Below, one piece after another: positions 12,347 through 46,202 of a stretch of 46,202 nt of DNA (its first letter is position 1; each line of letters begins with the position of its first letter). The DNA is taken from contig JAFAQQ010000177.1 in assembly GCA_019246335.1 (NCBI GenBank), forward strand, positions 1 through 46,202, in the 5' to 3' direction. The notes beneath the pieces were generated by a model. That model did no database searches, was not told the DNA's origin, and saw only the letters and a list, made by a program, of their open reading frames with translations. The position numbers and the translations under genes are program-made. The stretch is from Actinomycetota bacterium. Its GTDB lineage: Bacteria > Actinomycetota > Thermoleophilia > Solirubrobacterales > Thermoleophilaceae.

Positions 12347-12352
12347 GAGGCG

Positions 12353-12358: not shown

Positions 12359-12399
12359 AGCGGCGGTTCGGAGCCCTCCGCGTCGGATATGCGTCCAGA

Positions 12400-12411
12400 T
12401 CTTGCGCAAGA
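12400..12411. promoter_or_regulatory. 12-bp perfect palindrome, possible operator
   Basis: TCTTGCGCAAGA is self-complementary over 12 bp. Flanks ATGCG (from 12389) and CGCAT (to ~12418) extend the symmetry imperfectly. It lies between the divergent polymerase and LPFTG-protein genes, ~37 bp upstream of the latter's putative -10, a plausible regulator-binding site. Confidence 0.4.
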
Positions 12412-12447
12412 CGCGCATGGTCACTCGCGGATTGGGTAAAGCCGACC

Positions 12448-12966: not shown

Positions 12967-13007
12967 CGCAACAGGCCCGCAGATCGGCTAAACATTCGCT
13001 GTACCGG

Positions 13008-13025
13008 CCCCGATACTGGTCGGGG
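13008..13025 (+). terminator. Hairpin between the LPFTG gene and the sugar transferase gene
   Basis: CCCCGA (13008-13013), loop TACTGG, TCGGGG (13020-13025): a perfect 6-bp GC-rich stem with no following T-tract. It ends 11 nt before ATG 13037 and its 3' arm abuts AAGG. It could attenuate read-through or mask the ribosome site. Confidence 0.35.
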
Positions 13026-13036
13026 AAGGTGATCGC

Positions 13037-14596: not shown

Positions 14597-14672
14597 CACA
14601 GCGATCGACGCCCGGCCGGACGGGCGCTGACCTGCGCGTGAAGCCCTCACGGATTAGGGTTACCGAGCCGTC

Positions 14673-15458: not shown

Positions 15459-15503
15459 CTCCGCCTGCCGCTGGCGCGGCCGATGATCTCGTCGGGGTCG
15501 CGA

Positions 15504-15522
15504 AGCCGCTCCCCGAGCGGCT
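15504..15522 (+). terminator. GC-rich hairpin after the PHP phosphatase gene
   Basis: AGCCGCT and AGCGGCT form a perfect 7-bp stem around a CCCCG loop, 45 nt after the stop of the phosphatase gene. No T-tract follows immediately, so it is a weak or Rho-assisted terminator candidate. Confidence 0.35.
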
Positions 15523-15600
15523 CGGAGCCGTGGCTGGACGTTTGTTCGACCAAGGCTCCATAACCGTTCGGATACCCAGGGCTGAGCCGATGGTGAAGGC

Positions 15601-18781: not shown

Positions 18782-18788
18782 CAGTCAC

Positions 18789-18796
18789 GCTATAGC
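18789..18796. promoter_or_regulatory. Palindromic -10 region between epimerase and glycosyltransferase genes
   Basis: GCTATAGC is a perfect 8-bp palindrome in an 18-bp divergent gap. On the minus strand TATAGC is 7 nt from ATG 18781, the leaderless spacing. On the plus strand it ends 3 nt before GTG 18800, too close for that codon, so its role there is doubtful. Confidence 0.4.
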
Positions 18797-18799
18797 GCG

Positions 18800-19969
18800 G
18801 TGCCGGACGCCTCTGACAACGGGCGCCTGCGCGTCCTGACGCTCGTCGACCATCTGGGTACGTCGGGCGGCGGGGAGCGGCTCGCGATGGAGATGGTTCG
18901 CCGGCTCGACCGGGACCGCTTCGATCGCTTCTACTGCATCAGCCGCTGGGATGAGGGCGCCTGCGAGGACGAGCACGAGCTGCGCGCCGTCGCGCGGCTG
19001 CGTGACGAAGGCGTGCACGTGATGGGGCTCGGCCGCCAGAGCACGGCGGAGGTATGGCGATGGCGCCCCCTCGTGCGCGTCCTTCGCGAGGAGGACGTGC
19101 ACGTCCTGCACTCCCACAAGTTTGGCTCGAACGTCTGGGCGGCGGCGATCGCGCCGGCCGCACGCGTTCCCGTGTTCCTCGCCCACGAGCACTCGTGGTC
19201 TTACGAGGGCCGTCCCGTACGCCGCATGCTCGACCGCCACCTGATCGCGAGGTCCTGCGACCGCCTCCTCGCGGTCTCGGAGGCCGACCGCCGCCGGATG
19301 ATCGCCGTCGAGCACATCCCGCCGGAGTCGATCGTGGTCGTGCCCAACGGCATCGACCCGCTGCCGCCGGCGGACGGCGCGCGGATCCGGACCGAGCTCG
19401 GGCTCTCGCCGGAAGACCCGGTAGTGGGCGCCGTCGCGCTGCTGCGCCGCGAGAAGGGGCTCGAACTCCTCGTGCGCGCCATCGCCGCGCTCGTGGGAGA
19501 CATTCCGCGGCTCCGCGTGGTGGTCGCCGGCGACGGCCCCGAGCGCGCCCCACTCGAGGCGCTCGCAGCGGAGCTTGGCGTCGCCGAGCATCTGCGGATC
19601 CTCGGGATTCGCTCGGACGTGCCCGACGTGCTCGCGGCGATCGACGTCGCCGTCAACTGCTCGGTGTTCGAGGGCACGCCACTCGCCATCCTGGAATACA
19701 TGGACGCCGCGCTGCCGATCGTGGCGACGCGGGTCGGGGGCGTGCCCGACATCCTCGAGGACGGCCGCGACGGCGTACTGGTCGAATCGGGTGACGTCAG
19801 CGGGTTCGCGTCGTCCATCGCCAACCTGTTGAACGATCGGGAGCGGGCGCGGTCCCTGGGGGAACGGGCGCGGGTCCGCCGTCGCGAGCACTACGACCTC
19901 ACCGCCACGGTCCGCCGGATCGAGGGCCTCTACCAGGACCTCGTGGCCGCCGCCGGGAGCCGCCGGTGA
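18800..19969 (+). CDS. Glycosyltransferase family 4
   Basis: A 389-residue GT-B glycosyltransferase. The N-terminal Rossmann domain starts RVLTLVDHLGTSGGGERLAMEMV, with VLHSHKFGSN as the acceptor-side strand. The C-terminal GT4 domain has VPNGIDP, VGAVALLRREKGLELLVRA, RVVVAGDGPER and the nucleotide-sugar motif E-G-T-P-L-A-I-L-E (residues ~291-299). It is a retaining, NDP-sugar-dependent cytoplasmic enzyme that extends the lipid-linked repeat unit. Starts at GTG 18800. The next gene overlaps its end by 4 bp (GTGA). Confidence 0.9.
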   Translation: MPDASDNGRLRVLTLVDHLGTSGGGERLAMEMVRRLDRDRFDRFYCISRWDEGACEDEHELRAVARLRDEGVHVMGLGRQSTAEVWRWRPLVRVLREEDVHVLHSHKFGSNVWAAAIAPAARVPVFLAHEHSWSYEGRPVRRMLDRHLIARSCDRLLAVSEADRRRMIAVEHIPPESIVVVPNGIDPLPPADGARIRTELGLSPEDPVVGAVALLRREKGLELLVRAIAALVGDIPRLRVVVAGDGPERAPLEALAAELGVAEHLRILGIRSDVPDVLAAIDVAVNCSVFEGTPLAILEYMDAALPIVATRVGGVPDILEDGRDGVLVESGDVSGFASSIANLLNDRERARSLGERARVRRREHYDLTATVRRIEGLYQDLVAAAGSRR

Positions 19970-21036
19970 GCCTGGAGCCACTCGAGCTCGACCTCCTGAC
20001 CCGGCTCGAGGACGCCCGTGAGGACTGGCTCCGACTGGGCGAAGGCGCCGGGAATCCGTTCAGCACGTGGGAGTGGGCGCAAGCATGGTGGACGCACTTC
20101 GGGGAGGAGCGGGAGCTCCTGCTCGTGCGGCTGCGCTCGGGTGACGGTCGGGTCGTCGCGCTCGTCCCCCTGTATGTCGCCCGGACGAAACCCGTGAGGA
20201 TGGTCCGGCTGATCGGACACGGCCCCGCGGACCAGCTCGGGCCCGTCTGCGCGAGGGCCGACGCCGGAGCGGCCATGACGGCCCTCCGGCAGGGGTTCCG
20301 CGAGCGCATCCTTGGATGCCAGGTCGCGCTGCTGGAGCGCCTGCCGGCCGAGGACGAGGGCCTGGCGCCTGCGGCGGGCGGACGATTCCTCCGTCGCGAG
20401 CCGAGCCCGGTCCTCGAGCACGAGGGCGACTTCCAGTCCTTTCTCGCCTCCCGCTCGCGAAACTTCCGAGAGCAGGTTCGCCGCCGCGAGCGTCGCCTGG
20501 CACGCGACCACAGCACGGAGCTCGTCCTCACGACGAGCTCCGAGACACTCGAGCGGGACTACTGGACGCTCGTGGAGCTGCACCGTCGCCGCTGGGGGGA
20601 GGGCTCGCGCGCGTTCGAGCCGCCGCGCGACCGCTTCCACCTCGAGTTCGCCGCAGCCGCGCTCGACCGCGGCTGGCTGCGGCTGTGGACACTGCAGGTC
20701 GACGGCCGCCCGGCGGCCGCATGGCTCGGCTACAGGATGGGCGGCGCCGAGTGGTATTACCAGGCCGGTCGCGACCCCGCGCTCGAGCGCGAGGCTGTGG
20801 GCTTCGTCCTGATGGCCCACACCGTGCGCGCTGCCCTCGACGACGGGATGCACCGGTACCGGCTCCTGCTCGGCGGCGAGGCGTACAAGGACAGGTTCGC
20901 CACGTCCGACCCCGGAGTCGACACCGTCGCGCTCGCGCATGGCGTGCGCGGCCGGGCTGCGGTGGCCCTCGCGCGGGCTGCGGCGAGCGCGCCGGCGCCT
21001 TTGCGTAGGCGGGTCGGGCGCCTCGGACGCGTCTAG
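19966..21036 (+). CDS. GNAT-fold acyltransferase, CelD/BcsL-like
   Basis: A 356-residue protein of the cellulose-biosynthesis CelD/FemAB-like GNAT superfamily: NPFSTWEWAQAWWTHFG near residue 25-40, LVPLYVAR, FREQVRRRERRL at ~165, then RLWTLQVDGRPAAAWLGYRMGG and YYQAGRDPALEREAVG. These enzymes transfer acyl or aminoacyl groups and are common in exopolysaccharide loci. The exact donor is unknown. Translationally coupled to the GT4 gene, so probably decorates the same sugar. Its TAG and the convergent ligase's TAG share a CTAG at 21033-21036. Confidence 0.8.
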   Translation: MSLEPLELDLLTRLEDAREDWLRLGEGAGNPFSTWEWAQAWWTHFGEERELLLVRLRSGDGRVVALVPLYVARTKPVRMVRLIGHGPADQLGPVCARADAGAAMTALRQGFRERILGCQVALLERLPAEDEGLAPAAGGRFLRREPSPVLEHEGDFQSFLASRSRNFREQVRRRERRLARDHSTELVLTTSSETLERDYWTLVELHRRRWGEGSRAFEPPRDRFHLEFAAAALDRGWLRLWTLQVDGRPAAAWLGYRMGGAEWYYQAGRDPALEREAVGFVLMAHTVRAALDDGMHRYRLLLGGEAYKDRFATSDPGVDTVALAHGVRGRAAVALARAAASAPAPLRRRVGRLGRV

Positions 21037-22412
21037 GTCCGCTCCGCCTCGGCCGCAGCCGAACGGGCGATCGCCAGCAGCGCCGGCCCGAGCGCGAGCA
21101 GCAGCCAGAGCTGCTTGCTGAACTCGTCGGAGATGAAGAAGTCCGCGGCGAGGATGCCGGCCAGCGCCACCAGCAGGCCGCGCGAGAGAAGCTCCATCGA
21201 CGCGTCTCCCAGCCGCTCGAAGATCCGCGAGGCGCGCAGGATCGACACGAGGGAGAAGAGGATGATCGACACGAACAGCGCCGCTCCGATGACGCCCTCC
21301 TCCGCGAGGACGTTCAGGTACGTGTTGTGAGCGACCTTCGGCGTGTCGACGATGAGGTCCGCGCGCTGAAGCGCGCCGGGCTGGAGCAGGTAGTGGATCG
21401 AGCTGGTCTGGAAGTTCCCCACGCCGACGCCCCGGACCGGATGCGCCTGGACCATCCGCCATCCGACCGTCCAGATGTCCTGCCGTCCGCTGCCGTTCCC
21501 GAAAGACGTGACGCGCGCGATCTGGTCGGGCGTCGCCGCAAATCCGAAGTAGAGGAGGGCCGTGACCCCGAGCACGACGACGAAGGCGATCGCCTGGATT
21601 CGCCAGCGGCCCGCCGCAAACACCGCTGTGACGAGCGCGAAGCCCAGCGCGACGAGCCCGCCCCGCGACAGCGTCAGGAAGATCCCGAGCGTGCAGACGA
21701 TCGCAACGCCGATCAGCATCAGCCGCAAGAACGGCGACCGTTTCACCGTCGCCGCCAGGGCCGCGGCGAGGACGATTCCGCCGATCAGGACGGCGGCCAG
21801 CTGGTTGGGGTCGCCGAGCGTTCCCGTGGCCCGGCTGACCTCGTAGTACGTGACCGTTTGGGGGGGCGTGACCAAGCCGTACCCGGCCGCGAGCATCGCG
21901 CCCGTGACGTACGCGCCGACCGTCCACTTGAAGTCGCGTGGAGTCTTTACGGCGCTGTAGACGATGAGGAAGAGGATCACGTTCAGCGCGTACCGCATGA
22001 GTGGCGTGGCGCCGGCCGACTTGCTCTCGGCCCAGGTGAGGCTCAGGGCGGCGAACGCGACGAAGACGCCGAGCACGTAGGTGAACCCCGGGTGCTCCGC
22101 CAGGAAGTCGTTGCGGGAGTCGTCGGCGGTGGAGACCTTCGCGAACCACGAGATCGCGAGCAGGAGGCCGACGATCTTCGAGAAGCTGAAGGCCGAGCCT
22201 CCGAGGTTCGGCAGGACGTCGAGGAACGAGACGACGGCGAAGAGGCAGAGCCCGATCGTGAGGTCGCCGATGACCAGAACGACGAACGCGAGCCCGATCG
22301 CCGCGGCCACCGCGATCCTGGGATCGACGCCGGCCGCCACGCCGAGCGCAACCGCGACGAGCCCGACCAGCGCCAGGCGAGTACGTGAGGCGAGGTCGAT
22401 CCGGGCGACCAC
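21033..22412 (-). CDS. O-antigen ligase/polymerase family membrane protein
   Basis: A 459-residue polytopic protein with ~12 hydrophobic helices and the O-antigen ligase domain (PF04932 type): LGIFLTLSRGGLVALG, GRQDIWTVGWRMVQAHPVRGVGVGNFQTSS and HNTYLNVLAEEGVIGA. It polymerises or ligates repeat units on the outer side of the membrane. It lacks the TPR tail of the homologue at 10328. GTG start at 22412, 10 nt after the kinase stop, so it forms an operon with the Wzz/kinase, the usual pairing of polymerase and chain-length regulator. Confidence 0.88.
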   Translation of the reverse strand: MVARIDLASRTRLALVGLVAVALGVAAGVDPRIAVAAAIGLAFVVLVIGDLTIGLCLFAVVSFLDVLPNLGGSAFSFSKIVGLLLAISWFAKVSTADDSRNDFLAEHPGFTYVLGVFVAFAALSLTWAESKSAGATPLMRYALNVILFLIVYSAVKTPRDFKWTVGAYVTGAMLAAGYGLVTPPQTVTYYEVSRATGTLGDPNQLAAVLIGGIVLAAALAATVKRSPFLRLMLIGVAIVCTLGIFLTLSRGGLVALGFALVTAVFAAGRWRIQAIAFVVVLGVTALLYFGFAATPDQIARVTSFGNGSGRQDIWTVGWRMVQAHPVRGVGVGNFQTSSIHYLLQPGALQRADLIVDTPKVAHNTYLNVLAEEGVIGAALFVSIILFSLVSILRASRIFERLGDASMELLSRGLLVALAGILAADFFISDEFSKQLWLLLALGPALLAIARSAAAEAERT

Positions 22413-22422
22413 GACCGGCTGC

Positions 22423-24021
22423 TCAGCTGCGGGTCGCGGCGCCCTCGGGGCGGCTGCGCCGCTCGGCGGGAGGCGCGGCCGACGGCGTGTAGTAGTAGTA
22501 GCCCTCGCGCGTGGGCGGCACGCCCACGACGGCGAACCCGACGGGCTCGATGTCGTGCGTCGCCAGCAATTCGCCGAGGTTCTGCAGCTTGGTGAGCTGG
22601 GTGCGGCCGAGGCGCACGACGACCAGCACCTCGTCGACCTGCTGCGCGAGCGGCAGCGCGTCGATCACCTCACTGAGCGGCGGGGAGTCGACGATCACGT
22701 AGTCGGCAAGCCGCTTGGCCTCGGCCACGAGGTTCCGCGCCGCCGGCAGGAAGAGCTGGTCGGCCATGAAGCTGCTCGCCGCGCCGCTCGTGTCGGCGAG
22801 CAGCAGCCGGAGGTAGCGCCCGTACGCCTTCGTCTCGACGAGCGAGTCCTCGAGGTTCGCCATCCCGAGGAGAACCGCGCCGGTGCCGTTGGCGGAGGTC
22901 GCACCGAGCGCCTCCCCGATCGACGGACGCCGCAGGTCGGCCTCGATCAGTATCACGGAGTTGCCGGCGAGGGCGAGGGACGAGGCCAGGTTGATCGCGG
23001 TGGTCGACTTGCCCTCGGAGGGTGACGGGCTCGTCACCAGCACCGCGGGGGCGCCGGTGATGCCGACGCGCGAGGCCGCGAGCGTGGCCCTCAGCGTGCG
23101 GTACGCCTCGAGCGTGGACGGCGAAAGCCTCTCGGGGGCGAGCGCGCGGTCGTTCCCACGGCGCGAGTCACGCGGGATCCGGCCGAGGATCGGAAGGCTG
23201 TACAAGCGCCGCAGCTGCTCCTCCCGGCGCAGGCGCGGGTCCAGGACCTGCAGCGCGAAGGCGCTGCCGACGCCAAGGATCAGTCCGGCGAGGACGCCCG
23301 CGACGATGCTGAGCTTCTTCTTCGGCGACGACGGACGCTTAGGGAGAGCGGCGGTGGTCTCGATCCGAAGGGTGGGATCCGGCTGTGAGCGCAGCGCCTG
23401 GAGCCGCGCGAGCTGCGCCGGCAGGGAATCGGGGCCGACGGTCGCGGCTCGCTGTGCGGCCGACATAGCGGCAACGCGCGACGCGAGAGCCGAGATCGTG
23501 GTGTCGAGGGCCGAGTGGAACTGCTCGGTCTGCACTTCGATCACCGCCCTGGTGAACCCGTTTGCGAGGTCCTGAGAGAGCTTCGCCGAGCCCGCGGTGG
23601 CGGTGACGCTCACGATGTTGCTCTGGGCCACCGGCTGCGCGCTCACCTTGCTGGCGATGTCGTTGGGCCCCTGGCTCAGGGCCAGGTCGCGCTTCACCCG
23701 CAGCGCCGTCTCGCGGTTCACGATGAGCCGCGCCGCCGTCTCCACGTCGCGCGTCGGATCGCTCGTCTCCTTGATCAGCGGAAGGCTCGAGAGGGCCGTG
23801 TCGGAGCTCGAGATCGGTGAGACGAGGACGTCGCTGGCAGACGTGTACTCCTTCGGGGCGACGAGGATGTAGACGACCGCCGCCAGCGTTGTCAGCACCG
23901 TGATGGCGACGATGAGGATCCAGCGCTCGCGGATCGTGCTGACGTAGCGCTGCAACCCCTGCTGCTCCATCCGCGGGCGCAGCCACTGCGCCGAGCGACC
24001 GGTGGCCTCGGGCGTAGCCAT
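22423..24021 (-). CDS. Wzz-type chain-length determinant fused to BY-type tyrosine kinase
   Basis: A 532-residue protein with two membrane helices (~34-54 and ~238-260) around a Wzz periplasmic domain. A cytoplasmic bacterial tyrosine kinase follows, with Walker A SPSEGKST (333-340), Walker A' ADLRRP (361-366) and Walker B VIVDSPP (442-448). The tail contains GYYYY (507-511), a minimal tyrosine cluster. It controls polymer length through cycles of autophosphorylation. The PHP phosphatase at 14673 should reverse this. ATG 24021 is chosen over an upstream ATG (24120) because TACCAT lies 9 nt ahead and the Wzz domain starts soon after. Confidence 0.92.
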   Translation of the reverse strand: MATPEATGRSAQWLRPRMEQQGLQRYVSTIRERWILIVAITVLTTLAAVVYILVAPKEYTSASDVLVSPISSSDTALSSLPLIKETSDPTRDVETAARLIVNRETALRVKRDLALSQGPNDIASKVSAQPVAQSNIVSVTATAGSAKLSQDLANGFTRAVIEVQTEQFHSALDTTISALASRVAAMSAAQRAATVGPDSLPAQLARLQALRSQPDPTLRIETTAALPKRPSSPKKKLSIVAGVLAGLILGVGSAFALQVLDPRLRREEQLRRLYSLPILGRIPRDSRRGNDRALAPERLSPSTLEAYRTLRATLAASRVGITGAPAVLVTSPSPSEGKSTTAINLASSLALAGNSVILIEADLRRPSIGEALGATSANGTGAVLLGMANLEDSLVETKAYGRYLRLLLADTSGAASSFMADQLFLPAARNLVAEAKRLADYVIVDSPPLSEVIDALPLAQQVDEVLVVVRLGRTQLTKLQNLGELLATHDIEPVGFAVVGVPPTREGYYYYTPSAAPPAERRSRPEGAATRS

Positions 24022-24030
24022 GGGTGAACC

Positions 24031-24036
24031 ATGGTA
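24031..24036 (-). promoter_or_regulatory. Putative -10 of the Wzz/kinase gene
   Basis: Minus-strand TACCAT followed by 9 nt and ATG (24021). It supports the shorter start. Confidence 0.4.
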
Positions 24037-24227
24037 GGCGGAGTTGCCGACGATCCCCATGGCGCGAGGATCCGGCGGTTGACGGAGGGAGCCGGCCATC
24101 GACAGGGTGTACATCGGCACGGGATCGCGGCTTCACAAGCCCCGCATGGCAGGATTGCGGCACGCCCTTCCCGGACGGCGGGCCTCGACGCATCCAGCGG
24201 CGTGCCTATCGTGCCGAGACAGACGGC

Positions 24228-30137: not shown

Positions 30138-31424
30138 ATGCGCTTCTACGAGTACGAGTCCCGTCGGATCCTCGCCCGAGAGGGGATCCCCCTCTCCAAG
30201 CACGGCTTCGCCCGCAGCGCCGAGGAGGCCAAGCGAGTCGCGGCCGAGATCGAGGGCCCGGTCGTGATCAAGTCGCAGGTCCTGTCCGGCGGCCGCATGA
30301 AGGCCGGTGGCGTGAAGTTCGCGGATACCCCGGAGGAGGCCGAGGCACACGCGCGGGAGATCCTCCAGCTCGAGATCGGCGGGCACATGCCGCGCGGCGT
30401 GCTCGTCGACGCGCGCGCGGCCATCAAGCAGGAGTACTACGCCGGCGTGATCTACGACGGCGTGCGCAAGCGACCGACGTTCGTCTTCAGCGACATGGGC
30501 GGGATCGACATCGAGGAGGTGGCCGACACCAACCCGGAGCGCATCGGCCGCGGCCACTTCTCCACGATCCTGCCGCACATGGACTTCCGCGCGAAGGACG
30601 TGATCGCCTCGATCGGGATCACCGGATCGGAGCTCAACCGGCTCACCCCGATCCTCTCGAAGCTCGCCCGGCTCTTCCTGAAGTACGACATGACGCTCGC
30701 GGAGATCAACCCCCTCGCTCAGCTCGAGGACGGGACCTTCGTGGCCGTCGACGCCCACATGGACTTGGAGAACGAGGCCCGGCCACGGCAGAGAGAGCTC
30801 CTGGAGGAGCTTGGGGTGGGAGACGAGGAGACACGCGAAGCCCGCGAGCCGACCGAGTTCGAGATCAGGGGCGAGCAGATCGACGCGGTCGACCACCGCG
30901 GCGTGGCCGGGAACGTCACCGAGTTCGACGGGAACCTCGGGCTCGTCATCGGAGCGGGCGGCGGCTCGCTCACGCTTTTCGACGCGGTCCGCCGCCACGG
31001 CGGCAAGCCCGCCAACTACTGCGAGATCGGTGGAAACCCGAGCGTCTCGAAGGCGAAGAACCTCACCAAGCTCGTGCTCGAGAAGCCGGGAGTGGACAAG
31101 ATCGCGGTGATGATGAGCATCGTCTCGAACACACGGGTCGACATCGTCGCCCGCGGGGTGATCAAGGCGTGCCTCGAGCTGGGCCACGACCCCGCCGAGA
31201 AGATCGCCGTCTTCCGCATCCCCGGCGCCTGGGAGGAGGAGGGGTTCAAGATCCTCGAGAAGTACGGCGTCGAGTACTACGACCGCAGCGTCTCGATGCA
31301 CGAGGCGGCGCGCCGTGCCGTGGAGAAGGTCGGGGCCGCGTCGGACGGAGCCGGGCCGTCGGTGGACGAGCACCCGCCCGCCACCGTGGACGCCGGCACC
31401 AGCGGCGAGGGCGAGGCGCCGTGA
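30138..31424 (+). CDS. Acyl-CoA ligase, ATP-grasp beta-type subunit (ATP-citrate-lyase/citryl-CoA-synthetase-like)
   Basis: A 428-residue ATP-grasp subunit related to succinyl-CoA synthetase beta. The ATP-grasp half has VVIKSQVLSGGRMKAGG (42-58) and the metal-site EINP (189-192). The CoA-ligase half reads GAGGGSL (272-278) and ANYCEIGGNPS (292-302). SucC normally has GAGLAM and ANFLDVGG there. The sequence here recalls ATP-citrate lyase (ANY-E-x-G-x-PS). Length exceeds SucC (~385), with an inserted segment ~212-262 and a disordered acidic tail. Substrate inferred from the adjoining lyase: malate, citramalate or citrate. Overlaps the alpha-subunit start by 4 bp. Confidence 0.78.
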   Translation: MRFYEYESRRILAREGIPLSKHGFARSAEEAKRVAAEIEGPVVIKSQVLSGGRMKAGGVKFADTPEEAEAHAREILQLEIGGHMPRGVLVDARAAIKQEYYAGVIYDGVRKRPTFVFSDMGGIDIEEVADTNPERIGRGHFSTILPHMDFRAKDVIASIGITGSELNRLTPILSKLARLFLKYDMTLAEINPLAQLEDGTFVAVDAHMDLENEARPRQRELLEELGVGDEETREAREPTEFEIRGEQIDAVDHRGVAGNVTEFDGNLGLVIGAGGGSLTLFDAVRRHGGKPANYCEIGGNPSVSKAKNLTKLVLEKPGVDKIAVMMSIVSNTRVDIVARGVIKACLELGHDPAEKIAVFRIPGAWEEEGFKILEKYGVEYYDRSVSMHEAARRAVEKVGAASDGAGPSVDEHPPATVDAGTSGEGEAP

Positions 31425-32353
31425 GCGATCGTGAGCACCACCACCTGATCGACGAGGACACGACCTTCATCGTCCAAGGGATCACCGGGCGCGAGGCGGT
31501 CAACCTGACGAGGGAGTGCCTCGACTACGGCTCGAAGATCGTCGGTGGCGTCACTCCGGGCCGCCGCGGCCGTGACGTCCACGGGGTTCCCGTGTTCGAC
31601 TCGGTCGCGCAGCTCGTCGAGGAGGTCGGCGAGGTCCCGGACGGATCGGTGGTGACCGTCCCCCCCGCCTTCACCCGGGACGCGGTCTTCGAAGCGATCG
31701 AGGCCGGCGTAGCGCTGATCGTGATCGTGACCGAGCGGATCCCGCGGCAGGACGTCGCGCAGATGGTCGAGCTGGCGACGCTCCGCGGCGCCCGGATCAT
31801 CGGGCCGAACTGCCTCGGCATCATCCGCCCCGGCGTCGCCAAGATGGGTGGGATCGGTGGCCCCGCGCGCGACGCGCGCAAGGCCTACGAGCCGGGCTCG
31901 ATCGGCGTGATGTCCCGGAGCGGCGGCATGACCACCGAGATCTCGTCGACCCTGAGCGCCGCTGGGCTCGGGGTCTCCACCGCGATCTCGATCGGCGGGG
32001 ACGCGATCATCGGCTCCACCTACGCGGAGCTGATGTCGCTGTTCGAGGCCGACGAGCAGACCGAGGGAATCGTCATCTACACGGAGCCCGGCGGGCGGAT
32101 GGAGGCGCAGCTCGCGGAATGGGTAGTCGAGAACGAGTCCCGGCTGCCAATCGTGGCCTTCATGGCCGGCCGCTTCATGGACGAGATGCCGGGGATGAGC
32201 TTCGGCCACGCGGGCACGATCGTCGAGGGCAGGGCCGATACGGCAGCCGAGAAGATCAACCGTCTCCAATCCGCCGGCATCACGGTGGCCGAGGAGATCT
32301 CGGAGATCCCCGACCTGATGCGCGAGAAGCTCGGACAGAAGGCCACGGCGTAG
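31421..32353 (+). CDS. Acyl-CoA ligase, alpha-type (phospho-histidine) subunit
   Basis: A 310-residue SucD-like subunit. CoA-binding VQGITGREA (18-26), VVGGVTPG-type segment (40-47), GPNCLGI (128-134), and the phospho-histidine His263 in SFGHAGTIVEG. The phosphate/substrate loop reads SRSGGM (165-170), as in ATP-citrate lyase, rather than SRSGTL of SucD and of malate-CoA ligase MtkB. This again separates it from house-keeping SucCD. GTG 31421 overlaps the beta-subunit stop, and its TAG overlaps the ferredoxin GTG by one base (TAGTG), so lyase, ligase and ferredoxin are one translational unit. Confidence 0.8.
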   Translation: MSDREHHHLIDEDTTFIVQGITGREAVNLTRECLDYGSKIVGGVTPGRRGRDVHGVPVFDSVAQLVEEVGEVPDGSVVTVPPAFTRDAVFEAIEAGVALIVIVTERIPRQDVAQMVELATLRGARIIGPNCLGIIRPGVAKMGGIGGPARDARKAYEPGSIGVMSRSGGMTTEISSTLSAAGLGVSTAISIGGDAIIGSTYAELMSLFEADEQTEGIVIYTEPGGRMEAQLAEWVVENESRLPIVAFMAGRFMDEMPGMSFGHAGTIVEGRADTAAEKINRLQSAGITVAEEISEIPDLMREKLGQKATA

Positions 32354-35332: not shown

Positions 35333-36256
35333 TCAGCGGCGACCGTCACGGGGCGCCGCGCCATGGTCGCCTCCCCGCAGCTCCGCCCCGACCGCCCCCC
35401 GGACCAGCTCCATCGCCTCGCTGAGCGCCACGTCCATGTTGGCTGCCTCGATCACCGGCGCACCCGCCGCCTGGGCCCTCTCCACGAGGTAGTCCTGCAG
35501 TTTCCGTATCTCGGCGAACCGATCGAGGTAGCGGTCCGCGGGCCGATCGCCGCCGCGGAGGAGGAAGTGGCTGCGGTGGGCGTCCTCCTGCTCGATCGCG
35601 ACGACCGCCTCGACGAGCACGCACCGCTCGCGTAACGCCGGCGCAACCGAGCCCGGCACGATGTGGACGCCCTCGAGGATCATCGGTGTCCCCTCGAGCA
35701 GCGCGCGGTCGAGGATCGCCGCAGCGCCGGTGCGGACGCTCTCGACCTGGCGGAGGTAGCCGGCGATGTCCCGGTCGCCCTCGAGCCCGGGCACCGGGTC
35801 GAGCGCCGCTCCGGCCTCGAAGGAGGAGTAGTGAACCGCCGGCATGAGGTCGTGCGAGAAGAACGCGCGGATCACGTGCCTGATCGCGTCGGTCGCGATG
35901 ACGCGCGTGATGCCCACCCGTCCGGCGAGCAGCGTCGCAAGCGTCGACTTGCCCACGCCCGGCGCACCGCCGAGCAGCACGACGAGGGGCCGATCCAGGC
36001 GGGTTAGGTCCTCCCAGTCGAGGAAGCGCTCGGCGGCCTCGGGTCCCTCACGCTCGCGCAGCACCTCGGCCACCTGCGACCGCAGCTCCGCCACCGGGAT
36101 CTCGGCTCGACCGGCCTCCGCCAGCCGTGATTCCAGCGCTCGCGCCACCTCGTACGCCCGCTCCGGGGCCACCCCGGACGCCGAGAGTGACTGCGCCATC
36201 AGCCCCTTGGAGTACGGCAGACCGTGCTCGCCCTTGACGACGATCGTCTCAGGCAT
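35333..36256 (-). CDS. pgk2: 2-phosphoglycerate kinase
   Basis: A 307-residue kinase with an N-terminal ATP-cone-like domain (VVKGEHGLPYSKGLMAQSL, ~1-85), a P-loop GGAPGVGKS (96-104), IATDAIRHVIRAF and LEGVHIVPG. This two-domain layout matches archaeal 2-phosphoglycerate kinase, which makes 2,3-diphosphoglycerate from 2-phosphoglycerate and ATP as the first step to cyclic 2,3-diphosphoglycerate. The second-step enzyme is encoded just upstream and overlaps by 8 bp, which strongly supports the call. The C-terminal ~20 residues are basic and poorly ordered. Confidence 0.86.
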   Translation of the reverse strand: MPETIVVKGEHGLPYSKGLMAQSLSASGVAPERAYEVARALESRLAEAGRAEIPVAELRSQVAEVLREREGPEAAERFLDWEDLTRLDRPLVVLLGGAPGVGKSTLATLLAGRVGITRVIATDAIRHVIRAFFSHDLMPAVHYSSFEAGAALDPVPGLEGDRDIAGYLRQVESVRTGAAAILDRALLEGTPMILEGVHIVPGSVAPALRERCVLVEAVVAIEQEDAHRSHFLLRGGDRPADRYLDRFAEIRKLQDYLVERAQAAGAPVIEAANMDVALSEAMELVRGAVGAELRGGDHGAAPRDGRR

Positions 36257-37508
36257 CGTCGTGCAGTCGAAGGAGCGCGTCGTCGAGGTCGAAGTCGATT
36301 CCGACTGGCCGGTTCCGCACGAACGCGATCCGCGCGCCCGTCTTGCGGGCCGTCATGGCCACGGTGTCGATCGCCGCGGCCTTGAGCTCGGTGAGGTAGA
36401 CGTCGCAGCGCTCCCCGCTCGCGCGTGCGAGGTCGGCGTCCAGCGCCGCGCGGCGTGCGAGGTTCGTCGAGACCACGACCGGGTCTACGCCCTCGCACCG
36501 CTCGGCCCCGGTGGTGAACAGCGCAACCCGCGCCCCCGCCGGAACCCGCTCGGCGGGCTCCGGAACGAGCTCGCAGCGCCTGACCGGACCGGCCGCGATC
36601 GACTCCACCTCGCCCGCCCGCTCCGAGGACGCCGCTCCGCGCACCAGCAGCACGAGGTGCGACCGCAGTAGGCGGTAGGGACCCAGGTCCCGCAGCGCGT
36701 CGTCGGTGTCGCCGACGATGCAGACAGTCCGGTCCACCTCGACGGGCGGAATGCACGAGCCCGAGCCCTCGAAGACGATCGCGCTCGGTTCCTGCTGGAT
36801 CGCGAGCGCCGCACCGGCGGCCACGTTGGACTCGTACGGCTGGCCGGCGAGTCCCCCGCCGATCCGCCTGCAGCCCACCGAGTCGACGCCGGCCAGAACC
36901 GCATCCTCGAGGTAGTCCGATGCCGCATGCCGGCCCGCGCCGGCGATCCGAAGGAGGTCCTCGAGGCCGGTGCCGCTCGGCGCGAGCTGCGGTTGCGGCG
37001 GACCACCCCGGCCCATGGAGACGATCACCGGACGTAGCCCGCGTCCCTGCAGAAGCCGCGCCCAGTGCCCCGCCACCGCGGTCTTGCCCGTGCGCTTGCC
37101 GGTCGCGATCACGGCGAGCTTCGGACCCGCGAAGGCGAGCGCGTCGTAGGGCGGCGGGTCGAAACGCATTCCCGGGGCCTCGTAGGCGAGGCCGAGGTGA
37201 AGCGCGAGCGCCGCAAGCCGAAGCTTGCGCTCCGGCGGCAGAACCGGCTCGTCGGCCAGGTCGACGACCATCCCGCCGGCGAGCTCGGCGGCGGCCGTCC
37301 GCAGCGCCTGGTCGGGGCTCCCGAACACGACCTCCCGCCCGTAGTGATCCTCGGGTGCGGCGAGGACGGCCGGCCCGGCCTTCTCCTCGCCACCGCAGAA
37401 GACGACCCCGGCCAGGCCTCGCTCCCGGTCGAGGTGATCCAGGGCGTCCCGCACGACGGAAGGGTGGTGGTCGCCGTCGATCAGCGCTAAGGCCGCGCCC
37501 TGACGCAC
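36249..37508 (-). CDS. cpgS: Cyclic 2,3-diphosphoglycerate synthetase
   Basis: A ~419-residue protein matching archaeal cDPG synthetase. It starts ALALIDGDHHPSVVRDAL, has GVVFCGGEEK near 34-43, a P-loop-like ATGKRTGKTA (135-144) and GSGSCIPPVEVDRTVC in the middle, and closes VYLTELKAAAIDTVA and GIDFDLDDALL. It closes the ring of 2,3-diphosphoglycerate using ATP. The product is a solute known as thermoprotectant and phosphate/energy store in thermophilic methanogens. I chose GTG 37508 (GGAGG and AAGGA just upstream); a longer in-frame ATG at 37580 adds a non-conserved leader. First gene of a two-gene operon. Confidence 0.86.
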   Translation of the reverse strand: MRQGAALALIDGDHHPSVVRDALDHLDRERGLAGVVFCGGEEKAGPAVLAAPEDHYGREVVFGSPDQALRTAAAELAGGMVVDLADEPVLPPERKLRLAALALHLGLAYEAPGMRFDPPPYDALAFAGPKLAVIATGKRTGKTAVAGHWARLLQGRGLRPVIVSMGRGGPPQPQLAPSGTGLEDLLRIAGAGRHAASDYLEDAVLAGVDSVGCRRIGGGLAGQPYESNVAAGAALAIQQEPSAIVFEGSGSCIPPVEVDRTVCIVGDTDDALRDLGPYRLLRSHLVLLVRGAASSERAGEVESIAAGPVRRCELVPEPAERVPAGARVALFTTGAERCEGVDPVVVSTNLARRAALDADLARASGERCDVYLTELKAAAIDTVAMTARKTGARIAFVRNRPVGIDFDLDDALLRLHDDA

Positions 37509-37584
37509 CCTCCAATCCTTGCAGCACTCTCGGAGCCCACTCCCGCGGGGGAGGGAAGAATGCCTCGAATATCCGTCCAAACCC

Positions 37585-37661: not shown

Positions 37662-39308
37662 TTGAGTACCCTGAGAGTCAAGGGAGTGGTCGCGGCCGCG
37701 GGGGCCGTCGCACTAGCGCTATTCACCGCTTCGGGCGCGGAGGCCTCGGGGTGCGCGAGCACGTCCTCGCCGTACGCGAGCGCCGTCGCGGGCACGACGG
37801 GCATCGTCAGCTACTGGCGGCTCGGCGAGTCGTCGGGCACCGCCGCATGCGACGCCGTCGGCTCGAACACGGGCACGTACCAGGGCGGATACACGCTCGG
37901 CCAGACCGGCGCCCTCAACGGGGATCCCGACACCGCCCTGGGCTTGAACGGCTCGAACGGGATCGTGAGCGTCCCCCACTCGAGCTCGCTCGACGTCGGG
38001 GACAAGTTCACGCTCGAGGCGTGGGTGAAGCGCGGATCGGTCGGCGGCTCGAACAACCAGGCCGTCGCCTCCCAGCAGGCGAAGGCCTGGCTTCTGATGT
38101 TCAACCCGAGCAACCACCTGGTGCTCCGCGACGCCACCGTTGCCGACGTCGCCTCGTCGAAGGCCACCGTCACCGACAACGCCTGGCACCAGGTGGCCGT
38201 CACCAAGAACGGCAGCGCGGTCCACCTCTACATCGACGGCGTCGACCAGACCGGCTCGGTCAGCAACCAGACGCTTCAGACCAACACCCTGCCGCTGACC
38301 ATCGGGCAGAGCTCGGGCACGTCGTACTGGAACGGCACGATCGACGAGGTCTCGCTCTACAGCCGCGATCTCTCGGCCAGCGAGATCCAGTCCCACTACA
38401 ACCAGGCGACGACCACGCCGTCGCCGACCCCCGCGCCGACTCCGGCGCCCGATCCGGTGATCGGCGTGGCCGGCGACATCGCGTGCGACCCGTCGGACCC
38501 GAACTACAATGGCGGCCTCGGAAACGCCACGAACTGCCACCAGAAGTACACGTCCGACCTGCTCGTCAACACCGGCCTGAGCGGCGTCGTCACGCTCGGC
38601 GACGAGCAGTACGAGGACGGCGCCTACAGCAAGTTCCAGACCGTCTACAACACCACCTGGGGCCGAGCGGTGCAGCTCTCGCACCCCGCGGTCGGCAATC
38701 ACGAGTACCTCACTTCCAACGCGTCCGGCTACTTCGACTACTTCAACGGACCGGGCAACCAGACCGGCGCCGCCGGCGACCGGTCGCAGGGCTACTACAG
38801 CTACGACATCGGCACGTGGCACCTGATCGCGCTCAACTCGAACTGCTCGCAGATCGGGGGCTGCGGCTCGGGCTCGCCGCAGGAGACGTGGCTGCGCAAC
38901 GACCTCGCCACCCACCCCAACAAGTGCACGCTCGCGTACTGGCACCACCCGCGCTTCACCTCGGGGCCCGCGGGCAACTCGGGCAACATGGGCCAGATCT
39001 GGACCGACCTCTACAACGCCAACGCGGACCTGATCCTGTCTGCGCACGACCACCACTACGAGCGCTTCGCTCCTCAGACGCCGGCCCAGGTGGCGGATCC
39101 GAACCGCGGCATTCGCGAGTTCGTCGTGGGCACCGGCGGGAAGAGCCTCGTCGGCTGGGCGAGCAGCCTGCAGCCCAACAGCGAGGTGCGCGACTCGGAC
39201 ACCTACGGGATCCTGCGCCTGACGCTCCATCCCTCGGGCTACGACTGGCAGTTCGTCCCCGAGGCGGGCAAGACGTTCACGGATTCCGGCTCCGCCAGCT
39301 GCCACTAG
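37662..39308 (+). CDS. Secreted LamG-domain metallophosphoesterase (purple-acid-phosphatase-like)
   Basis: A 548-residue exported protein. Signal peptide ~1-29, LamG/concanavalin-like domain ~45-245 (VSYWRLGESSGT, FTLEAWVKRG, HLYIDGV, GTIDEVSLYSRDLSASEI), Pro/Thr linker ~250-264, then a calcineurin-type phosphoesterase 266-548. Metal motifs: GDIAC (271), GDEQYEDG (313), GNHEY (345), YWHHPRF (426) and SAHDHHYERF (460). It hydrolyses phosphate esters outside the cell; the LamG part probably binds a glycan or surface. TTG start at 37662 with GAGGGGG just ahead. Its 3' end overlaps the convergent GNAT gene by 32 bp. Confidence 0.9.
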   Translation: MSTLRVKGVVAAAGAVALALFTASGAEASGCASTSSPYASAVAGTTGIVSYWRLGESSGTAACDAVGSNTGTYQGGYTLGQTGALNGDPDTALGLNGSNGIVSVPHSSSLDVGDKFTLEAWVKRGSVGGSNNQAVASQQAKAWLLMFNPSNHLVLRDATVADVASSKATVTDNAWHQVAVTKNGSAVHLYIDGVDQTGSVSNQTLQTNTLPLTIGQSSGTSYWNGTIDEVSLYSRDLSASEIQSHYNQATTTPSPTPAPTPAPDPVIGVAGDIACDPSDPNYNGGLGNATNCHQKYTSDLLVNTGLSGVVTLGDEQYEDGAYSKFQTVYNTTWGRAVQLSHPAVGNHEYLTSNASGYFDYFNGPGNQTGAAGDRSQGYYSYDIGTWHLIALNSNCSQIGGCGSGSPQETWLRNDLATHPNKCTLAYWHHPRFTSGPAGNSGNMGQIWTDLYNANADLILSAHDHHYERFAPQTPAQVADPNRGIREFVVGTGGKSLVGWASSLQPNSEVRDSDTYGILRLTLHPSGYDWQFVPEAGKTFTDSGSASCH

Positions 39309-40413
39309 GCAGCTGGCGGCGCTGCAGCCTGCCGAGCGTCGCCCTTGCGCGCTTGGCGGCAGTCCGTCCGCGGCGCCACGCGGCGTGCTCGACCCCGCCC
39401 AGCGGCGAGCGCGGGAAGACCTGCAGCCGCACGCGCTCCCGGACCGTCCGCGTCCAGTGCAGCTTGTACTCGTCCGCCTCGCCGAGTAGCTCGTATGACG
39501 TGAAGCCCGCTTCGAAGGCCCGGCGTAGCTCGTCATGGGTCAGGAGCACGCCAGGCCCGAGGCTTCGCGCCTCCGTGTCGAAGCCGCCCTTCAGCACGTA
39601 GCAGGTGCGATCGACCTCGATGCACAGGTCGAAGGCCACGGCGCGCCCGCCGACTCGCAGGAACGCAAGTGTGAGCCAGCCGCGTGTAGCCGCCCACGCG
39701 CAGACCTCGCGGTAGAAGCGCTCCCGAACCGGGTCAGAGGCGATCGCCGTCCCCGCGGCGGACTTCCAGCCCGAGCCCTCGAGCCGGAACCCCTCGTCCA
39801 GCAGGAGGTCCAGATCGCGCGAGCCGTCCTCGTACGCGACCTCCACCTCGCCCTGGTCCTCAAGGCGTCGCCAGCGCCGGCCGATCTCCTTACGGAACTT
39901 GCGCTCGAGGCCGGCCATGAACTCATCGAACGACCCCTCGATCGGCACGTACGGCGCTCGCGTCATCGTGCGCTCGAGTGTCCTCAGGCCCGCCGCCTCG
40001 GCGGTGGAGCGCGCCTCCGCCAGTCCGAGCGCTTCGCGGTCGAGGAACCCGAGGTCCGCACGCCGCCGGACCCGCCGGAAGAGCTCCTCGGCGAGCGCGA
40101 CGGCCGCTTCGGCATCCTCGGCCACGGGTCCGAAGAGCGGCGTCTGCCAGTTGGTCGCGGACCTCAGAACACCGCGCCGGCGCTCGAGCGGCAACACGCC
40201 CGCGAGGCGATCCCCCCTACGCACGACGATGGCGACGGGTTGCCCGGTCGCGAACGCGCGCCAGTACGCGTCGATCCATCCAGGGCGCGAGAACGGCGGC
40301 ACCGCCGCCCGGTCCGCGAGCTCGTCCCACTCCGCCCGATCGACGGCGCCCGCCTCGCAGAGCTCGGTCCTCTGGCGGAGCGCCGTGCCGGACTGCGCTT
40401 CCCGGGTCGCCAC
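39277..40413 (-). CDS. GNAT/FemAB-like acyltransferase (CelD-like)
   Basis: A ~378-residue protein of the CelD/FemAB-like GNAT superfamily. WDELADRAAVPPFSRPGWIDAYWRAFATG near the N-terminus, VLPLERRRGVLRS, then FMAGLERKFRKEIGRRWRRLED, LAFLRVGGRAVAFDLCIEVD and ARSLGPGVLLTHDELRRAFEAGFTSYELLGEADEYK. The same layout as the protein at 19966. It probably transfers an acyl or aminoacyl group to an envelope glycan or lipid-linked precursor. GTG 40413 is taken because TATGTT lies 8 nt upstream; longer in-frame starts would run into the divergent gene at 40450. Confidence 0.78.
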   Translation of the reverse strand: MATREAQSGTALRQRTELCEAGAVDRAEWDELADRAAVPPFSRPGWIDAYWRAFATGQPVAIVVRRGDRLAGVLPLERRRGVLRSATNWQTPLFGPVAEDAEAAVALAEELFRRVRRRADLGFLDREALGLAEARSTAEAAGLRTLERTMTRAPYVPIEGSFDEFMAGLERKFRKEIGRRWRRLEDQGEVEVAYEDGSRDLDLLLDEGFRLEGSGWKSAAGTAIASDPVRERFYREVCAWAATRGWLTLAFLRVGGRAVAFDLCIEVDRTCYVLKGGFDTEARSLGPGVLLTHDELRRAFEAGFTSYELLGEADEYKLHWTRTVRERVRLQVFPRSPLGGVEHAAWRRGRTAAKRARATLGRLQRRQLPSGSWRSRNP

Positions 40414-40421
40414 GGGCGCAC

Positions 40422-40427
40422 AACATA
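40422..40427 (-). promoter_or_regulatory. Putative -10 of the 39277-40413 gene (leaderless)
   Basis: Minus-strand TATGTT, 8 nt, GTG (40413). It lies in a 36-bp divergent gap. Confidence 0.4.
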
Positions 40428-40449
40428 GGGACCGGTTCGGAGGCCGCCG

Positions 40450-41604
40450 GTGAGCCGTCGCCTCCGTTACGACGTCGGGCCGGATCAGCGACACCCTGCC
40501 GCGGGCGGGCGGGGCCTCGTGCCGCGAGTGGTCGGGGTGGACCCGCAATCCGACCCCCGCTGGGACGAGCTGGTCCGGCGGCATCCGCGAGCGGGCGCCT
40601 ACCACCTCGGCGCCTGGGCGCCGATCCTCGCCGGGTCCTACGGCTACGAGCCCGCATACCTGGCGCTCGAGACGAGCGACGGGCGCCTGACCGGGGCGCT
40701 GCCGCTGATGAAGACGCGCGGGCTCCTCACCGGGCGCAGGCTGCGATCGCTGCCCGTCGTGCCCCCGGCCGGTCCGCTCGCCGAGTCCGATGAGGGGATC
40801 GCGCTACTCGTCGAGTCGGCATGCCGGCTGACGGACGACTGGGGGAAGGTCTGGACTCTCCACTCCCGCGAGGCCGCCCACGACGGCCTCTGCATGAAGC
40901 TACGGCCGGTGCCGAAGCACCCGACGTGGGTGCTCGAGCTGCCGGGTGACGTCGAGGAGATGCGGAGGGGCTGGAAGAGGACCGCGAACAACCTCTTCCG
41001 GGGTATCCGCCGGGCCGAGCGGGACGGAGTGACCGTCCGCGAGGGCACGGCGCAGGACGACCTCAAGGCCTTCTACGCCCTGTACGCGCGAACCATGCGG
41101 CGCAGGACCACGCTCCCGAGGCCGTATCGCCAGCTGGCGCTGGATCGCGAGCTCCTCGGCCCCCCGGGCGCCTTCCGGTTGTTCGTGGCGGAGCACGGGG
41201 GCGAGATCGTCGCCGGCGGGGTCTTCCACTCCTTCCGCGGGACGCTCGACCTCCTCTACAACGGGAGTGACGAGCGGCGTCTCGACGTCCGCCCGAACCA
41301 CGCTCTCTACTGGCACGCGATCGAGTGGGCGGCGACCCATGGCCACTCCGAGATCGACTTCGGCCACGCCCGACCGGGTTCCTCGCTGGCGCGCTTCAAG
41401 GCGCAGTGGGGCGCCGTCGAGGTGCCCGAGTACCGCTACGACTATCTGCCGGTCGGCGCCGCAACGAGCTCGGGCGACGAGCCACGGGGCCGCCCGGAGA
41501 TCCTTCAGGGCCGCGGTCGCAAGGGGATCGTCGAGCGCGTCTGGCCGCGGCTGCCGCTCGCCGTCACCCGCCTCGCGGGCAGGATCGCCTACCGCTACGT
41601 GTAG
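40450..41604 (+). CDS. FemAB-like GNAT-fold protein (peptidoglycan/EPS aminoacyl or acyl transferase)
   Basis: A 384-residue FemAB-family-like protein. RWDELVRRHPRAGAYHLGAWAPIL, LPLMKTRGLLTGRRLRSLP, RGWKRTANNLFRGIRRAERDGV as the phosphate/tRNA-like binding helix, LFVAEHGGEIVAGGVFHSF, and the ending EIDFGHARPGSSLARFKAQWGA, typical of the FemAB proteins associated with exopolysaccharide (PEP-CTERM/XrtA-type) loci. GTG 40450 has GGAGG six bases ahead. It is divergent from the related gene at 39277, so the two probably arose from an old duplication and act in the same process. Confidence 0.82.
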   Translation: MSRRLRYDVGPDQRHPAAGGRGLVPRVVGVDPQSDPRWDELVRRHPRAGAYHLGAWAPILAGSYGYEPAYLALETSDGRLTGALPLMKTRGLLTGRRLRSLPVVPPAGPLAESDEGIALLVESACRLTDDWGKVWTLHSREAAHDGLCMKLRPVPKHPTWVLELPGDVEEMRRGWKRTANNLFRGIRRAERDGVTVREGTAQDDLKAFYALYARTMRRRTTLPRPYRQLALDRELLGPPGAFRLFVAEHGGEIVAGGVFHSFRGTLDLLYNGSDERRLDVRPNHALYWHAIEWAATHGHSEIDFGHARPGSSLARFKAQWGAVEVPEYRYDYLPVGAATSSGDEPRGRPEILQGRGRKGIVERVWPRLPLAVTRLAGRIAYRYV

Positions 41605-44264: not shown

Positions 44265-45665
44265 CTACCCGCCCCCCAGGCAGACGATGAAGCTCCGGTG
44301 GCGGGTCGCCCTCCTGCCAAACCGGTCGACCGCTGTGGCCAGCAGGTCATGCCTTCCCGCGCTGAGCGAACCCGCGTGGACCGTGAACGCGAAGCGCCGG
44401 CTGTGAGACCTCTTCAGCCGATGGCCGTCGAGCTTCACCGTGACCGTTCGCGGGCCCGCCGCGCTGGTCCGTGCGTGAAATCGCACGTCCCCCCGCACGC
44501 AGCCCGCCCGCGGAACGTCGTCGAAGCGGACGCGGGGGGGCGGGATCTCATTCACCTTGTGCCCGCTGGGATTGGTGAAGATGTCCGAGCCGAACGGCCG
44601 CAGGCCTGCCGCGGCTGCGTAACCGAGGTGGCCGAGGCCGAAAGTGTCCTCCACGCTGCGAAGCAGCGAGTAGTGGTTGTACTCCTGGCTTGTCTGCGTG
44701 CCGGGCTTGATGTAGGGCGAGAGTAGGACCGCGCCGGTCTCGCCCCCGCCGGAGCCCGGCGTCGGACCGCCGTTGTTGGGTGTGTTCGGGCCCTGCACCT
44801 CACCGCAGCAAGACGCCGCACCCGTCGCCGACTCGTCGAAGATCACGGCGAGCAGACCGTCCTTCTTGTACGCGGGCGAGGAGGTGATCTTCGGCACCCA
44901 TTTCTCGAGGAAGCCGTTGGCGCTGACGAGTCCGCCGGCCTCGCCGTCAACGCACGGGGAGTCGTGCCCGTCGTGGCAGAGGTTCGGTGTGATGAACACG
45001 TAGCTGGGCGTCTTGCTCTCGGTCGCGAGGGCCGCGTCGAGCGCGGTCAGCGGATGGACGTGGTCCGAGCAGCGCGCGTCGCTGTCGATTATCGAATGGA
45101 AGTACATGAACGGGTCGTGCCGCATCGCGTACTGGTCCCCCTTGGACGCGGTCTGCGAGTTGTCCTTCGACCCGACCGCCGGATGGCCGTCGTTACAGCT
45201 CGTGCCGTCGCGCGAGGGGTCGTTTCCCATGTCCTCCATGAACCCGCCCCAGGTGCGCCCCGCGCCCTCCAGCTGGTCGGCCACCGTTGGCACGGCCGTG
45301 GGATAGACGCTTCCGACGCCGATCGCCTGGCCGTTGGCCCCGCCCGGGGAGCCCGTGAAATCGACGTAGAGGGGCGCATCCGCCTGCGTGTAGGGGTTCG
45401 GGCCCTGACCGCTCGCCAGGGCTATGTAGTTGTCGAGGCTCTCGTGGCCGATCCCGAAGTAGCCCGGCACGAACGCGCCTTCGGCGCGCAGCGTGTGCGC
45501 TAGATAGGGCGCCGGCGAGCTGGTCCCGAACGACTTCGCCTGATCCTGGTTTTCGAGGACCACGATGAACACGTGCTTGATCGGGGGCAGCCCTGCGGCG
45601 GCGCTGCCGGGCGCCAGCGCCGCCGCGAGCGCGACGCACATGAGCGTGCAGGCCAGCCTCCGCAA
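44265..45665 (-). CDS. Secreted phosphoesterase (PF04185 phospholipase C/acid phosphatase family)
   Basis: A 466-residue exported protein. Signal peptide ~1-24 (ending GSAAA), phosphoesterase domain ~28-375: HVFIVVLENQ (metal Glu/Asn), FGIGHESLDNYIALASGQ, MRHDPFMYF, FITPNLCHDGHD, VIFDES and GAVLLSPYIKPG. A C-terminal Ig-like/beta module (~385-466) ends CLGGG. The family includes bacterial phospholipases C and acid phosphatases, acting outside the cell on phospholipids or phosphate esters. Two Cys pairs in the catalytic part suggest disulfides. Followed after 3 nt by the Nudix-MFS gene, so co-transcribed. Confidence 0.88.
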   Translation of the reverse strand: MRRLACTLMCVALAAALAPGSAAAGLPPIKHVFIVVLENQDQAKSFGTSSPAPYLAHTLRAEGAFVPGYFGIGHESLDNYIALASGQGPNPYTQADAPLYVDFTGSPGGANGQAIGVGSVYPTAVPTVADQLEGAGRTWGGFMEDMGNDPSRDGTSCNDGHPAVGSKDNSQTASKGDQYAMRHDPFMYFHSIIDSDARCSDHVHPLTALDAALATESKTPSYVFITPNLCHDGHDSPCVDGEAGGLVSANGFLEKWVPKITSSPAYKKDGLLAVIFDESATGAASCCGEVQGPNTPNNGGPTPGSGGGETGAVLLSPYIKPGTQTSQEYNHYSLLRSVEDTFGLGHLGYAAAAGLRPFGSDIFTNPSGHKVNEIPPPRVRFDDVPRAGCVRGDVRFHARTSAAGPRTVTVKLDGHRLKRSHSRRFAFTVHAGSLSAGRHDLLATAVDRFGRRATRHRSFIVCLGGG

Positions 45666-45676
45666 GGGGCCGGTCC

Positions 45677-46202
45677 TCAGATCTTGTGGCGCTCGAGGAG
45701 CTTCTTGCCGATGACCATGCGCTGGATCTCCGACGTTCCCTCCCCGATCAGGAGAAGCGGCGCGTCGCGATAGAGCCGCTCGATCTCGTACTCCTTCGAG
45801 TAGCCGTATCCGCCGTGGATGCGAAAGGCGTCCTCCACGACCTCCTTGCCCGTCTCGGACGCGAAGAGCTTCGCCATCCCCGCCTCGAGGTCCGAGCGCT
45901 CGCCCGCATCCTTCAACCGGGCTGCGCGAAGCGTGAGCAGCCGGGCGGCGTCGACCTTCGTGGCCATGTCGGCGAGCTTGAACTGGATGGCCTGGTGCTG
46001 GGAGATCGGCTTGCCGAACGTGCGCCGCTCCTGCGAGTAGCGAAGCGCCAGCTCCAGCGCGCGCTGCGCGATCCCGACGCCGCGCGCCGCCACGTTCACT
46101 CGCCCCACCTCGAGCGCGTCCATCATCTGGCGGAAGCCCTGGCCGAGGCCCTCGTCTCCACCAAGGATGCGGTTCGCAGGGCAGCGATAGTCCTCGTAGA
46201 CG
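45677..46202 (-). CDS. Acyl-CoA dehydrogenase, C-terminal part (start outside window)
   Basis: About 174 residues of the C-terminal half of an acyl-CoA dehydrogenase, open to the window edge. Visible: GLGQGFRQMMDALEVGRVNVAARGVG, RRTFGKPISQHQAIQFKLADMAT (FAD/CoA helix bundle), GGYGYSKEYEIERLYRDA and LIGEGTSEIQRMVIGK. The Glu of GEGTSEIQ is the usual catalytic base position. Flavoenzyme that oxidises acyl-CoA to enoyl-CoA. Whether it is the (2S)-methylsuccinyl-CoA dehydrogenase of the ethylmalonyl-CoA route or another family member cannot be told from this half. Confidence 0.93.
   Translation of the reverse strand, partial: VYEDYRCPANRILGGDEGLGQGFRQMMDALEVGRVNVAARGVGIAQRALELALRYSQERRTFGKPISQHQAIQFKLADMATKVDAARLLTLRAARLKDAGERSDLEAGMAKLFASETGKEVVEDAFRIHGGYGYSKEYEIERLYRDAPLLLIGEGTSEIQRMVIGKKLLERHKI

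Follow-up and report, generated by a model that had tools for sequence, protein, structure and literature searches.

The window, by which we mean the whole 46,202-nucleotide stretch of DNA analysed here, carries an overlapping gene pair that very probably forms a working unit for the biosynthesis of cyclic 2,3-diphosphoglycerate (cDPG). In most genomes that carry the pair, a phosphoesterase encoded beside it probably recycles the product, which would give a reversible cytosolic store. The novelty of the system lies in its bacterial, largely non-thermophilic setting and in the phosphoesterase co-inherited in most carriers. Only the two-gene form is present in the window. A structure paper of 2023 described cDPG as exclusive to hyperthermophilic methanogens (PMC10690619). 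The presence of a co-inherited pathway in ~39% of the sampled Actinomycetota, many of them from soil or permafrost, would overturn that exclusivity. It would also give the physiology of uncultured but abundant soil bacteria a further metabolite rich in phosphate. Searches of the open-licence literature returned no paper on cDPG or the pathway to it in Actinomycetota; automatic database names may well exist for some of these genes.

Layout of the gene pair

The window spans a complete contig (C178) from a 2.5-Mb genome, which is assembled in 227 contigs and is 93.65% complete. Its GC content is about 70%, and Thermoleophilaceae/Actinomycetota MAGs were the nearest named relatives in the cDPGS tree and listing of relatives, in agreement with the high-GC bacterium of the preliminary description. 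The coordinates given there for the two genes were also correct. The gene for cyclic 2,3-diphosphoglycerate synthetase (cDPGS, 36249..37508, minus strand) starts with GTG at 37508, 7 nt after a Shine-Dalgarno-like AAGGA (37516..37520, same strand), and ends with a TGA stop at 36249-36251. The gene for a 2-phosphoglycerate kinase homologue of 307 aa (2PGK, 35333..36256, minus strand) runs from an ATG at 36256 to a stop at 35333. The two genes overlap by 8 bp (ATGCCTGA, 36249..36256, minus strand), a layout that likely couples their translation, and alignment points to the same overlap in the eight named loci closest to the window (L018-L025).

cDPGS and 2PGK were free of internal stops in the window and in both of its genus mates. 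Within the genus, dN was ~0.14-0.22 and dS ~0.7-0.8 for both genes, the high dS making this a rough ratio, and both genes are under purifying selection. Scans for sigma-70 and terminator consensus sequences returned no match, nor did a search against Rfam.

Identity of the two enzymes

A PDB sequence search with the cDPGS protein returned cDPGS entries only, with 9SXB at 9.1e-59 and 8ORK/8ORU at 2.7e-58 (Methanothermus fervidus). Query residues 31-439 were aligned to residues 8-448 of 8ORK, which is nearly the whole length, and the homology includes the N-terminal domain of ~127 aa that has no counterpart in other known structures. The AlphaFold model (pLDDT 94.8) matched 8ORU over the whole chain with a query-normalised Foldseek TMq of 0.89, and the best non-cDPGS match in this structure search fell to 2e-05. 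No Pfam or NCBIfam model matched the protein at E<=1e-3, so annotation by these libraries alone would overlook it.

Nine of the residues in contact with 2,3-DPG, Mg or ADP in the 8ORU structure were checked, namely E45, K46, K145, R146, K149, T150, D208, E404 and K406 (PMC10690619). All nine were conserved in the window protein, as E42, K43, K138, R139, K142, T143, D198, E374 and K376, and they were invariant across 30 bacterial cDPGS sequences. The window protein resembles M. fervidus cDPGS (8ORK, 8ORU; De Rose et al. 2023, PMC10690619) in length class, fold, P-loop (GTGKRxGKT, here ATGKRTGKT) and the ligands of 2,3-DPG and Mg. It differs in its sequence (34% identity), its bacterial host and its high GC. 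Of three further ADP contacts, E305, which touches the adenosine, falls in an alignment gap, and P335 and T353 aligned with low confidence.

The 2PGK protein matched the NCBIfam models PRK12337 (6.9e-83) and PRK04220 (3.4e-80), both named 2-phosphoglycerate kinase, and covered profile positions 6-289 of 306 of the latter, a full-length match. It shares an ATP-cone and a P-loop kinase along its whole length with the archaeal enzyme (PRK04220; COG2074), and COG2074 has been reported as common to Thermus, Deinococcus and archaea (PMC1274311). The predicted fold was that of a P-loop kinase, and a PDB sequence search found no solved relative. Unlike the archaeal kinase, the window protein scored below the curated cut-offs, with 279 bits against 603 for PRK12337 and 269.7 against 343 for PRK04220. 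We therefore term it a homologue and infer its substrate from linkage and co-occurrence. Its score of 270 bits on PRK04220 compares with 73 on the model of the related mevalonate-3-phosphate 5-kinase (NF008996), a homologue from the same superfamily. Both enzymes of the cDPG pathway are encoded in this genome, as the preliminary description had proposed, at the level of homologues with full-length matches and, for cDPGS, with the nine checked ligand residues invariant.

Co-occurrence and linkage of cDPGS and 2PGK

Among 61 close relatives, cDPGS was found in 15 genomes, and a strong 2PGK match was found in exactly those 15, on the same contig. A phylum-wide sample of 397 Actinomycetota genomes included 153 with cDPGS (~39%). 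Both genes occurred in 152 genomes, cDPGS alone in one, 2PGK alone in one and neither in 243. A strong 2PGK match was thus present in 152/153 cDPGS-positive and 1/244 cDPGS-negative genomes (Fisher p ~1e-109, ignoring shared ancestry), and in the sole cDPGS-only genome the gene is a fragment located where a contig ends. GTDB contigs were scanned for relatives of cDPGS, which gave at least 429 matches, the best 80 of which were examined. 2PGK lay directly downstream of cDPGS in 74 of these best 80 loci; the other six comprised three contig ends, two Rubrobacter loci with 2PGK elsewhere (L079, L097) and one locus from Acetothermia/Bipolaricaulota for which no 2PGK was detected. In a 100-genome sample of this second phylum, cDPGS was found in 11. 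In Acetothermia 64_32 (L088), cDPGS was present and 2PGK was not detected in the genome.

In Rubrobacteraceae (the f20 group, with Rubrobacter taiwanensis among its members), cDPGS and 2PGK were unlinked yet co-occurring, as seen in two single-contig genomes (G071 and G101), and the distance between them in G071 was 0.9 Mb. Because the genes are far apart, their co-occurrence in this group is not a by-product of linkage. A mirror-tree comparison of cDPGS and 2PGK distances gave r=0.87 for 71 pairs, a value reached in 0/2000 permutations. The earlier view that the pair belongs together functionally is borne out by the co-occurrence in 152/153 genomes, the adjacency in 74 of the best 80 of at least 429 loci, and the invariant catalytic residues.

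A phosphoesterase gene beside cDPGS

In 71 of the best 80 of at least 429 loci, the gene immediately preceding cDPGS, in the same orientation, encodes a calcineurin-like metallophosphoesterase of ~260 aa (MPE; for example L059:3210-3989). It matched Pfam Metallophos and no NCBIfam model above cut-off, and it contained an invariant HHHL.P.PGTGRER..DAGD block together with the usual metal ligands. Mean column identity was 66% for MPE and 54% for cDPGS and 2PGK in similar samples. At E<1e-98, a threshold set by eye with a paralogous group lying at ~1e-88 to 1e-97, MPE was found in 128/153 cDPGS-positive and 0/244 cDPGS-negative genomes of the 397 Actinomycetota. This restriction to cDPGS-positive genomes at high stringency makes MPE a candidate cDPG hydrolase, and so points to a candidate gene for cDPG breakdown. 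MPE was also present in one of the closer relatives, G009 (87% complete), in which no cDPGS was detected. Many genomes of the f20 group carry extra MPE paralogues. The cassette-type MPE was absent from all three genomes of the window's genus, which is why the preliminary description overlooked it.

The superfamily of MPE spans many activities, and a 2,3-DPG phosphatase would be an alternative role. Calcineurin-like enzymes that cleave pyrophosphate bonds exist, such as LpxH/LpxG, so hydrolysis of cDPG by MPE would be chemically reasonable. A membrane-bound cDPG hydrolase activity has been described in Methanothermobacter (Van Alebeek et al. 1994, as cited in PMC1224877), and this breakdown activity is the one that would be expected of MPE. 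MPE, by comparison, belongs to the Metallophos family, looks soluble and does not occur in the window's genome. No gene for the Methanothermobacter hydrolase was found in the open-licence literature. A PiT phosphate transporter was encoded upstream of the cassette in eight of the best 80 of at least 429 loci (L029, L038, L053, L054, L055, L059, L069 and L081), an assignment confirmed with Pfam PHO4 in L059 only.

Age and origin of the pair

The cDPGS tree grouped the sequences from Thermoleophilaceae, Gaiellales-like bacteria, Rubrobacter and Coriobacteriia by taxon with good support; it included two archaeal sequences, too few to tell the direction of a very old exchange or the root. A downstream gene order of TalC followed by Rho recurs in distant lineages. 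The GC content of the pair was ~72-73%, close to that of its surroundings. These results indicate that the inheritance of the pair is old and mainly vertical, with losses. The described enzymes are archaeal, and the preliminary description had suggested phylogeny as a check for transfer from archaea. However, the tree following bacterial taxonomy, the wide spread of the pair in Actinomycetota (cDPGS in 39% of those sampled), the recurring TalC-Rho neighbours and the matching GC all argue against a recent acquisition of the genes by this lineage through horizontal transfer from archaea, which we consider highly improbable. No cDPGS was found in plasmid records or viral contigs, so carriage by mobile elements is unsupported.

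Function of the pair

In the proposed pathway, 2PGK would convert 2-phosphoglycerate and ATP to 2,3-diphosphoglycerate. cDPGS would then spend another ATP on phosphorylating the 2-phosphate, and ring closure would yield an internal phosphoanhydride, in line with the published M. fervidus mechanism. MPE, encoded directly upstream in most carriers, would probably return cDPG or 2,3-DPG to central metabolism. The result would be a reversible cytosolic reserve of phosphate, carbon and phosphoanhydride energy, in which cDPG accumulates. As MPE is absent from the window's genus, turnover of cDPG there would have to use another enzyme or the reversal of cDPGS.

A more specific form of this proposal, to which we give about an even chance, is that MPE, cDPGS and 2PGK are an old three-gene module of much of Actinomycetota that was lost in some groups. 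In mesophiles, this module would run a reversible phosphate/energy reserve of cDPG or a cyclic-metabolite signal, with MPE as the cDPG hydrolase.

For archaeal cDPG, both thermoprotection and storage of carbon, phosphate and energy have been discussed (PMC1224877). The archaeal carriers described in most detail are hyperthermophiles, which counts against a store as the best explanation. Hyperthermophilic methanogens are the model for the alternative in which cDPG serves chiefly as a compatible solute or thermoprotectant, a role published for M. fervidus and M. kandleri (PMC10690619). Thermoprotection was also proposed in thermophilic ammonia oxidisers (PMC7554672, PMC5797428). In our data, cDPGS was present in a hot-spring Rubrobacter. 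However, the record titles of carrier MAGs also include fen, palsa, Chersky, permafrost, and shallow and 20-40 cm soil, environments that we take, from these titles and general knowledge, to be cold or temperate. With many carriers from soil, fen and permafrost, heat protection is not an obvious function. In addition, the occurrence of 2PGK in mesophilic methanogens has prompted the proposal of a different function (PMC2686161), cDPG has been reported in Methanobrevibacter smithii (PMC1224877), and the recurrent MPE suggests turnover. A mainly thermoprotective role is thus rather doubtful here. On the basis of the archaeal storage literature, the mesophilic 2PGK, the carriers from cold places and soil, and the PiT transporter in eight loci, we tentatively favour a store of phosphate, energy and carbon over heat protection. 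With such a bacterial pathway, the old question of heat protection or storage would become open to study in cultured aerobes that are not methanogens, for example Rubrobacter.

The other explanations concern the product itself. 2,3-BPG is the cofactor of dPGM, and 2PGK could serve to supply it, leaving cDPGS with a side function. However, the window's own genome (93.65% complete) has iPGM (645.8 bits) and no dPGM above cut-off, which makes 2,3-DPG as a mutase cofactor unlikely, and across the 397 genomes 2PGK is hardly ever seen where cDPGS is missing. We therefore rejected this role and give it hardly any credence. The pair might also act on a different, related phosphorylated acid, as homologous enzymes with a changed product. 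Both families are versatile P-loop enzymes, cDPGS is far from the characterised enzymes at 34% identity, and 2PGK falls below its curated cut-offs. Against such a change, the nine checked ligand residues are all kept and the two genes, which encode successive steps, are inherited together with almost no exception, and we regard a changed product as quite unlikely. The reading of the pair as a cDPG biosynthesis unit is the one that we prefer to both.

Surroundings of the pair in the window

The preliminary description had noted two secreted phosphatases nearby and supposed that they would supply phosphate. One of them is clear: the gene at 37662..39308 (plus strand), divergent from cDPGS, encodes a protein with a signal-like N-terminus, a LamG domain and a calcineurin-like Metallophos domain (Pfam). 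The second is probably the Phosphoesterase (PF04185, Pfam) gene at 44265-46202 (minus strand), which lies at the contig edge, ~6.8 kb from the pair. The link of the first of these to the pair is weak, as this LamG phosphatase adjoins it in both genus mates (G001 and G002) and not in the other relatives checked. For this reason, the LamG phosphatase was rejected as a part of the core system, and it is probably a neighbour of the pathway, not a member.

In the window's genus, the pair stands in an exopolysaccharide-type neighbourhood beside this secreted LamG phosphatase. Exopolysaccharide-type genes, encoding Wzy-like ligases, Wzz and CpsB/CapC, were observed at 10331-24120 and 39277-41604 of the window. 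Three GNAT/FemAB-like proteins are encoded in these stretches, one of which scored under the cut-off of the XrtA/PEP-CTERM FemAB model that it matched. The stretch 30138-32353 encodes beta and alpha subunits of a divergent succinyl-CoA synthetase-like type, with scores below the succinate-CoA ligase cut-offs.
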